NCBI RefSeq assembly: GCF_002214465.1
Contig: NZ_CP015101.1
Location: 627,013-691,012 of the forward strand
Length of the DNA stretch: 64,000 bases
Reading direction: 5' to 3'
Source: Thermococcus barossii
GTDB lineage: Archaea; Methanobacteriota_B; Thermococci; Thermococcales; Thermococcaceae
Shown here in pieces: positions 2,926 through 32,374 of the stretch (position 1 is its first letter; each line of letters begins with the position of its first letter). The notes beneath the pieces were generated by a model, which saw nothing but the letters and a program-made list of their open reading frames with translations, searched no databases and was not told the DNA's origin. Position numbers and translations under genes: made by a program.

Positions 2926-2960
2926 ACTCTCACCGGAGGATATTGGGAAGAACAGGTTAA

Positions 2961-3112
2961 AAATGTGGGCTTGGCCATCCCCCACCCTCATCGAAGGCTC
3001 CGCCACCCTCAGGCGGTCCGGAGACCAAGCCCTGTCCGCCCGGCATCGTCGCACCCCATCACGGCCGCCCGAAAGCTCCGGGGCCCGGGCCACCGGGCGT
3101 CGTCGGATGCCG
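2961..3112 (-). ncRNA. putative two-hairpin box H/ACA guide RNA
   Basis: A GC-rich island in an AT-rich gap. Read on the minus strand it has two hairpins, each followed by an ACA. Hairpin 1 has lower-stem arms CGCCCGG (3099-3093) and CCGGGCG (3043-3037), then G and ACA at 3035-3033. Hairpin 2 has arms GGGCTTGG (3032-3025) and CCAAGCCC (2974-2967), then ACA at 2966-2964 and a T run. Inside hairpin 2 two UGA elements can form a K-turn, the L7Ae site of archaeal H/ACA RNAs. A TTAAAA box (3140-3135) lies about 25 bases before the 5' end. Such RNAs guide pseudouridylation; the targets were not derived. Confidence 0.8.
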
Positions 3113-30812: not shown

Positions 30813-31718
30813 TCACCCCTCTCCAAAAATCCTCTCCACGAACCACTTCTCGTCGAAGGGTTTGAGGTCGTCGTAGCCCTGACCGACGCCGACGAAGAGT
30901 ATGGGCGCGCCTATAGCGTGGCTTATGCTCAGCGCCGCACCGCCCCTCGCGTCCGCATCGAGCTTTGTGAGAATTACTCCGTCTATCTTAACAGCTTCGT
31001 TGAACTGCTTCGCCTGCTCGACGACGGCGTTTCCGCTCAGGCTGTCGCCGACGAATATCACCAGGTCGGGCTTGGTTACGCGCGCTATCTTCTTCATCTC
31101 ATCCATGAGGTTTCTGTTCAGCTCGTTCCTCCCGGCGGTGTCTATGAGAACGACATCAAGTCCTCTGGCCTTCGCGTGCTGGATTGCATCGTAGGCTACC
31201 GCCGCTGGGTCGGCACCGTAGGAGTGCTTTATGACCTTGACCCCGACGCGCTTTGCATGCTCCTCGACCTGCTCTATTGCCCCGGCACGGAATGTGTCGC
31301 TCGCCGCTATTACGACGCTCAGCCCGTTCTTTTTGAGCCAGTGGGCGAGCTTGGCTATGGTTGTCGTCTTCCCGGAGCCGTTGAAGCCCACGAAGGCTAT
31401 GACGAAGGGCTTCTCCTCTTTGGAGCGTATCATCTCCAGGAGGTCAATCTTTTTTTCAGGCGTGAGAACCTCCAGGACCGCTTCGCGGACGGCTTCCTCA
31501 ACCAAAGCCTTCTTGTTGGTTCCTATCTTGACCTTCTGGCCGACGAGCTTTTCCTTTATCCTCTCCTTCAGCTCCTCGACGGTCTCAAGTGCAACGTCTG
31601 CTTCGAGAAGCTCTATCTCCAGGTCCCAGAGGGCGTTCTCGACGTCCTTCTCGCTTATTTCAGTCTGTGAGACTTTCTCAACGAATGAGCCTAACTTCTC
31701 CTTGAGCTTTCCAAGCAT
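30813..31718 (-). CDS. ftsY: signal recognition particle receptor FtsY
   Basis: 301 residues. An N domain (helical, 1-95) leads into the G domain with [15 protein letters not shown] (P-loop), [29 protein letters not shown] and [13 protein letters not shown]. It docks ribosome-SRP complexes at the membrane. The start at 31718 has GGTG six bases before it. The archaeal form lacks the long acidic N-terminal A domain of E. coli. CTATATAATT (31750-31759) is its promoter. Confidence 0.95.
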
Positions 31719-31770
31719 GTTCATCACCTGATGAGCGAGGGACTTATGCCTATATAATTATTATGAAGAT

Positions 31771-31828
31771 GCCCTCGGCGATAGCTGGTGTCATCATACT
31801 TCAGACCCGAAACCGCTCGTCATCGGGC
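31771..31828 (-). ncRNA. box C/D sRNA with two 23S rRNA antisense elements
   Basis: Minus strand, 58 nt. Order: stem GCCC, C-like GATGA (31824-31820), element CGGTTTCGGGT, D' CTGA (31804-31801), AGT, C' ATGATGA (31797-31791), element CACCAGCTATCG, D-like CCGA (31778-31775), stem GGGC. The first element pairs with ACCCGAAACCG and the second with CGATAGCTGGT; both strings occur, as I remember, in domain II of 23S rRNA. TTATAAA at 31851-31857 lies about 26 bases before the 5' end. Spacing of three bases between D' and C' and 11-12 base guides fit archaeal 2'-O-methylation guides. The outer boxes deviate from RTGATGA and CTGA. Confidence 0.82.
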
Positions 31829-31848: not shown

Positions 31849-31858
31849 TCTTATAAAC
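31849..31858 (-). promoter_or_regulatory. TATA box of the C/D sRNA
   Basis: Minus-strand GTTTATAAGA just after the stop of the gene at 31859. About 25 bases downstream gives base 31828, the start of the predicted terminal stem. Confidence 0.7.
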
Positions 31859-32308
31859 TCAGTACCTCCTGACGTAGGTTTTGCTCTCCACCACCCTGCC
31901 GTTCTCAAGGCGCACGACGTCCACTCGTTCGAAGCCGACGGTTTCCCTCTTGTATGCTATTAAATAATCAATGAATTCCCTAATTCCATAGCGGGTTATT
32001 GAGTCCTTCACGTACTTGTGCTCGTAGAGCAGAACGAGTCTGTCCCTGTGACTCCCCAGCCATTCCCTGAGCTTTGCCCTCTCAGCCTTTGACCGTGAGA
32101 GCGGGTTGACTATGAGGTAGACATCGAAGTCGTCGCTCTCGAAGGGTGAGCCTATGTAAACGTCACCGTCGATCTGAAACGGCAGATACTCCGCAAGTAT
32201 GCGCCTTCCCGTTTTCCCCCATGCACTCAGGTATATTCTCGCGAGTCTCTTCCCGTCGCCGGTAATTAAAACCGCTCCCGAATTTAATTCGGCTATTTTC
32301 TTCAGCAT
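31859..32308 (-). CDS. conserved-looking protein of unknown function
   Basis: 149 residues, mixed alpha/beta, with SGAVLITGDGKRLARIYLSAWGK near the start and VYIGSPFESDDFDVYLIVNPLSRSKAERAKLREWL. GTGATGACC supplies the ribosome site for the ATG at 32308. I do not recognise the family; the middle (SDDFDVYLIVNPLSR) looks like the end of a Rossmann-like sheet. It is divergent from the nucleoside importer operon. Confidence 0.6.
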   Translation of the reverse strand: MLKKIAELNSGAVLITGDGKRLARIYLSAWGKTGRRILAEYLPFQIDGDVYIGSPFESDDFDVYLIVNPLSRSKAERAKLREWLGSHRDRLVLLYEHKYVKDSITRYGIREFIDYLIAYKRETVGFERVDVVRLENGRVVESKTYVRRY

Positions 32309-32374
32309 GGTCATCACAAAAAACTTTTACTCCGAGGTTAAAATTCTTTCTCAAATTTTCGGCTCCCAGAGAAC

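Follow-up and report, generated by a model that had tools for sequence, protein, structure and literature searches.

The RNA studied here has an orthologue in sR20 (alias Tko-sR20) of Thermococcus kodakarensis, a 62-nt RNA at 558818-558879 with a start site at 558914 (PMC9014305). In the wild type, 1,622 small-RNA reads are listed for sR20, together with 21 reads across circular junctions; the latter were absent without the RNA ligase TK1545 (PMC9014305). The RNA that bears the name sR28 in that work is a different one, located at 832364; here the name refers to the Rfam family RF01136. In Nanoarchaeum equitans, sR15 and sR17 each have guides directed to opposite strands of one helix in 16S rRNA, and a chaperone role was proposed rather than demonstrated for both (Dennis et al. 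2015, PMC4644070). Table 3 of that paper covers five species, none of them from the Thermococcales. In yeast, depletion of Prp43 traps the guide RNA snR39b in preribosomes (PMC2806949).

Here we analyse a 58-nt element of Thermococcus barossii that lies in a 64,000-nt stretch of the genome (the window). The results lead to the conclusion that the element is a real and largely ordinary feature, a member of the already known sR28 family. Each of its two guides is complementary to a different strand of the same long-range 23S rRNA helix, and the guides and the rRNA co-vary among the Thermococcales.

Results

Identity and layout of the element

A first-pass annotation, made from sequence, had proposed a 58-nt box C/D sRNA, and such an element does exist, on the minus strand of the window (31828-31771). 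It was identified by cmscan as an sR28 box C/D sRNA (RF01136) with 57.4 bits and an E-value of 3.6e-12, in a match that spans positions 1-55 of the 55-position model and lies over the gathering cut-off of 39 bits. This E-value and the presence of complete copies in 82 of the 94 Thermococcales genomes, counted as genomes and not as independent events, place the element far beyond chance. The mature RNA is probably about 58-63 nt long.

Read from 31828 to 31771, the RNA begins with the 5' arm of a terminal stem, GCCC (31825-31828), followed by a single G and the C box ATGACGA (31817-31823). The D' guide GCGGTTTCGGGT (31805-31816) leads to a D' box, read from the sequence as CTGA (31801-31804), the three bases AGT and the C' box ATGATGA (31791-31797). 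The D guide CACCAGCTATCG (31779-31790) is then followed by the D box CCGA (31775-31778) and the 3' arm GGGC (31771-31774), which pairs with the 5' arm to give a stem of 4 bp. The stem had been proposed earlier, as had perfect D' and C' boxes three bases apart; the arrangement CTGA-AGT-ATGATGA is canonical, with the few-base spacing of archaeal box C/D sRNAs. Two points of the earlier description required correction. Both spacers measure 12 nt from box to box, where guides of 11 and 12 had been given, and the D box is CCGA, not CTGA. The C and D boxes each deviate by one base from RUGAUGA and CUGA, and together they form a k-turn next to the terminal stem. The guides, lying 5' of D' and D, agree with the complementarity to rRNA of about 10-12 nt, with the target base opposite the fifth position, that is usual in archaeal box C/D sRNAs. 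The T. barossii genome also encodes fibrillarin (PF01269 match, 342.8 bits).

Weak second matches to RF01136 were encountered in most genomes. The one in T. barossii (locus L048, C1:6076-6127, minus strand) was read and set aside as a different box C/D sRNA with the guides GGGAAGTTTCGT and AACTCGCATGGG. Elsewhere in the window, the HgcE (Pab105) H/ACA RNA was matched at 2950-3070 on the minus strand (RF00060, 75.3 bits).

Co-variation within the k-turn

Position 5 of the C box, which is C and not U in T. barossii, faces position 2 of the D box in the 3b:3n pair of the k-turn. Among the 82 copies this pair is C.C in 45, U.U in 19, A-U in 13, C.U in 4 and C.A in 1, and every one of the 45 copies with a CCGA D box carries the C box ATGACGA. 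For archaeal box C/D k-turns in general, a strong U:U bias has been reported (Ashraf et al. 2017, PMC5689011). Since the two positions change together, the compared sequences indicate that the CCGA D box is a matched change, with U.U converted to C.C in concert, rather than decay. Additionally, a second concerted change was seen in the T. kodakarensis-like clade (L005, L007, L013, L014 and L015), in which a D' box CCGA goes with a C' box GTGAGGA and places C-G at the corresponding position of the internal motif. The same combination of D' and C' boxes is found in the unrelated sRNA at L048. The putative T. onnurineus genome (G025) has the D box CAGA.

Distribution and loss

Boxes and guides were delimited by reading all 82 complete copies. 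Pairs 1-4 of the terminal stem are kept in 82, 78, 72 and 66 of them, with swaps that include C-G to G-C and G-C to A-T. A phylum-wide search found no copies in other families of the phylum, and a two-guide pattern scan of the genome contig collection, from which near genomes were possibly left out, returned 13 records from the Thermococcales only. The control genome of Sulfolobus acidocaldarius gave an RF01136 score above the cut-off. In T. kodakarensis (G023) the sR28 match (558825-558876, minus strand) falls within the published sR20, and the target site in its 23S rRNA is contained in the 23S interval given in the same study (PMC9014305).

Two complete Thermococcus genomes, G014 and G034 (loci L102 and L103), lack sR28, which is therefore not essential in the genus. 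In both, the upstream gene and ftsY still stand side by side and the stretch between them is without the sRNA. The 11-mer of the D guide was found in these genomes only opposite the 23S target, apart from one stretch without boxes in G014, and no D' guide with boxes was found at up to two mismatches. G014 and G034 are thus natural knock-outs of sR28.

Promoter and neighbouring genes

The TATA box claimed for the element was borne out. Its sequence, TTTATAAG (31850-31857, minus strand), starts 34 nt ahead of the C box, so that the transcript would be expected to begin at the terminal stem or directly beside it, and a TATA-like motif occurs at the matching distance in 13 of the 16 genomes of the genus that share this guide type. 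The TATA box is immediately preceded by the stop codon (31859-31861) of a 152-aa protein gene listed among the open reading frames (31859-32317, minus strand), which is syntenic in relatives. The gene downstream is a homologue of ftsY, encoding the SRP receptor (30813-31727, minus strand). At loci with a GTGGC-type D' guide (L013, L014, L015 and others), the upstream gene reaches or enters the sRNA, with its stop codon apparently in the C box. The T. barossii clade differs in having a gap, with the TATA box, between the upstream gene and sR28.

Guide targets in 23S rRNA

The T. barossii 23S rRNA is encoded at C1:1412326-1415355 on the minus strand, and its positions are counted here from where the Rfam match begins. 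The D guide is an exact complement of 11 nt at 921-931 (CGATAGCTGGT), as the first-pass annotation had stated, and its fifth position faces the predicted target A925, which corresponds to A804 in an alignment with E. coli 23S. The D' guide pairs with 789-799 (ACCCGAAGCCG) by 10 Watson-Crick pairs and one U:G wobble, the latter 3 nt from the predicted target G793 (E. coli G674 by the same alignment). Thus two guides to domain II of 23S rRNA and the two fifth-base sites named earlier agree with the organism's own rRNA. An exact match of at least 10 bases, on which the earlier proposal had been made to depend, is present in the 11 bases of the D guide. The pairing given for the D' guide holds as to the site but not as to its sequence: the string ACCCGAAACCG given for it is absent from the T. 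barossii 23S, which reads ACCCGAAGCCG, with G at the differing position, and leaves the one wobble. The string ACCCGAAACCG occurs in putative Pyrococcus genomes and most other genera, and not in the genus Thermococcus.

Duplex energies, computed at 37 C, separate true from shuffled guides weakly; with RNAduplex, the energy of the D' guide was reached by 6 of 60 shuffled guides and that of the D guide by 1 of 60. With 16S rRNA as the target, the best value for the D' guide was -16.7 and that for the D guide, pairing at 16S 232, was -18.0. A further genomic copy of CGATAGCTGGT, at C1:1804878, is not part of the rRNA, and this 11-mer was put down to chance. Because the energy of the D' guide is only modestly better than that of shuffled guides, the call of the D' target rests on co-variation of guide and rRNA. 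Opposite the target G793, all 82 copies retain the pairing C of the guide. Where 23S position 796 is A, the guide has U in 22 of 22 genomes and the non-pairing C in none, and where it is G, the guide has C in 24 of 37 and U in 13 of 37. This co-variation implies selection on pairing. Positions 796 and 921 of the rRNA change together (A with A, or G with C) in nearly all genomes, the exceptions being G072 and G078.

The D' guide occurs in two types. In 47 genomes it is GCGGT-like, with C at position 2 and U at position 5, and in 35 it is GTGGC-like, with U at position 2 and C at position 5; the two positions always change together, never singly among the 82 genomes. Within the genus, a GCGGT or ACGGT guide is present in all 12 sR28-bearing genomes that have A in the rRNA site CCCCGAAGCCAC (703-714), and a GTGGC guide in all 24 other genomes with known rRNA. 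The split in guide type coincides with an rRNA change at the 703 site.

Geometry of the target sites

The sites had been described as neighbouring. Both do lie in domain II, but they are more than neighbours, since in the Rfam structure they form opposite strands of one long-range helix (790-802/915-930), which we take to be helix 32 by standard numbering. In the Rfam archaeal LSU structure line, converted to T. barossii numbering, C790 pairs with G930, C791 with G929, G793 with C927, and 797-802 with 920-915. One strand is covered by the D' guide (789-799) and the other by the D guide (921-931), and with sR28 bound 6 of the 9 helix pairs lose one or both partners. In the mature helix of this model G793 is paired and A925 lies in an internal loop. 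The geometry is that of the Rfam consensus structure and not of a minimum-energy fold; the long-range helix was absent from the minimum-energy fold of a 175-nt piece of the rRNA.

Discussion

T. barossii sR28 very probably guides the methylation of two nucleotides of 23S rRNA. The present analysis shows that the RNA belongs to a conserved family, that its guides are able to pair with the rRNA and co-vary with it, and how the targets are arranged in the Rfam model. Expression and circular forms are established for the T. kodakarensis orthologue sR20 (PMC9014305). No methylation data for the G793 and A925 sites in relatives and no published 2'-O-methyl maps of Thermococcales 23S were found in the literature searched; RiboMeth-seq data for P. 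furiosus are held under GEO GSE153501 (PMC7758197).

We propose that the sR28 gene would be transcribed from its own promoter and that, by analogy with the known archaeal pathway, L7Ae would bind the RNA at both the C/D k-turn and the C'/D' loop, followed by Nop5 and fibrillarin. Pairing of the D' guide with 789-799 would lead to 2'-O-methylation of G793, and pairing of the D guide with 921-931 to methylation of A925. The sRNP would hold both strands of the helix unpaired yet close together, and the long-range helix, with the roughly 110-nt subdomain that it closes, might form only after release of the sRNP. We have good confidence in this explanation taken as a whole, that is, in an sR28 with its own promoter, methylation at G793 and A925, and both helix strands held unpaired.

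Other explanations differ as to which guide works and where. It is conceivable, though we consider it unlikely, that the D guide (Am925) is the sole working methylation guide in the clade and that the D' duplex serves binding or folding. The D guide matches without exception and hardly varies among copies, and the D' guide has its U:G wobble in T. barossii and falls to about 9 bp of pairing in relatives from some other genera. However, the wobble lies three positions from a target G whose guide C is never lost, the D' guide and the rRNA co-vary in a manner that implies selection on pairing, and the site that Dennis et al. (2015, PMC4644070) discount contains three G:U pairs and not a single one. 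That the D' guide acts mainly at the other 23S site, 703-714, is very improbable for T. barossii, although it would be possible for the sister clade. In relatives with the GTGGC-type guide GTGGCTTCGGGT the 703 site does pair better than the 789 site (-23.6 vs -20.8 kcal/mol), but the 703 site of T. barossii reads GCCAC, which leaves an internal mismatch with GCGGTTTCGGGT, and this guide favours the 789 site (-20.5 vs -17.7 kcal/mol).

A further reading makes the element a cis-acting, L7Ae-responsive k-turn in the 5' leader of ftsY rather than a trans-acting guide. sR28 and ftsY do share a strand, with the sRNA immediately before the gene, and L7Ae is known to bind a k-turn in the leader of an archaeal mRNA (PMC6298567). 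Yet ftsY has its own TATA box downstream of sR28, at about 31750-31757, and both sR28 guides are conserved and match rRNA. Furthermore, the linkage is absent in relatives, in which sR28 and ftsY are about 2 kb apart (T. kodakarensis) or about 17 kb apart on opposite strands (G004, putative P. abyssi). We rejected cis-regulation of ftsY for this lack of linkage and regard it as hardly credible.

The D' guide may have changed its target within one genus. A change from GCGGT to GTGGC would move the best D' site from 789 to 703, and sister species would then differ in methylation; we put this forward tentatively and think it somewhat doubtful. The split in guide type fits a single retargeting event at one branch, to judge from the sequences compared, and shared descent with drift is also possible. 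If retargeting is true, the same gene would give different methylation patterns in sister species, and two species have lost the gene altogether.

sR28 is a clean natural test case for the working of archaeal guide RNAs. Both strands of one ribosomal helix are covered by one sRNA, whose guide tracks changes in the rRNA. The genus contains two guide forms and two natural losses and includes the genetically tractable T. kodakarensis, so that a role as methylation guide and a role as folding chaperone can be directly tested against each other.

sR28 is not an unrecorded kind of feature, because the family is already in Rfam and the T. kodakarensis orthologue has been sequenced (PMC9014305). The T. 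barossii RNA agrees with RF01136 in its full-length match, both guides, the D'/C' spacing and the order of the boxes; it differs in having the D box CCGA and the C box ATGACGA, where the consensus has CUGA and U at the matching C-box position. With sR20/Tko-sR20 (PMC9014305; Jaeger et al. 2014, PMC4247193) it shares an identical D guide and the same C-D'-C'-D layout (L015). In contrast, sR20 has a GTGGC-type D' guide and the D' box CCGA with the C' box GTGAGGA. No TATA box was found for sR20 at the matching distance, and its transcription has been mapped to begin 35 nt before the RNA, whereas the TATA distance in T. barossii and its nearest relatives would make the start coincide with the 5' end of the RNA itself. 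Yeast snR39b is a eukaryotic guide whose site, 25S Gm805, we presume to be perhaps the equivalent of G793.

The likeness to N. equitans sR15 and sR17 is that the two guides address the two strands of a single rRNA helix, although those RNAs act on helices 30 and 28 of 16S rRNA and sR28 on a domain II helix of 23S. With its guides so placed, sR28 would keep both strands covered, in agreement with the chaperone model put forward for other archaeal sRNAs; by this analogy and in the Rfam model, sR28 may help the 790-802/915-930 helix to fold. We therefore regard sR28 as a further example of the dual-guide chaperone idea, backed by co-variation of guide and rRNA over 82 genomes.
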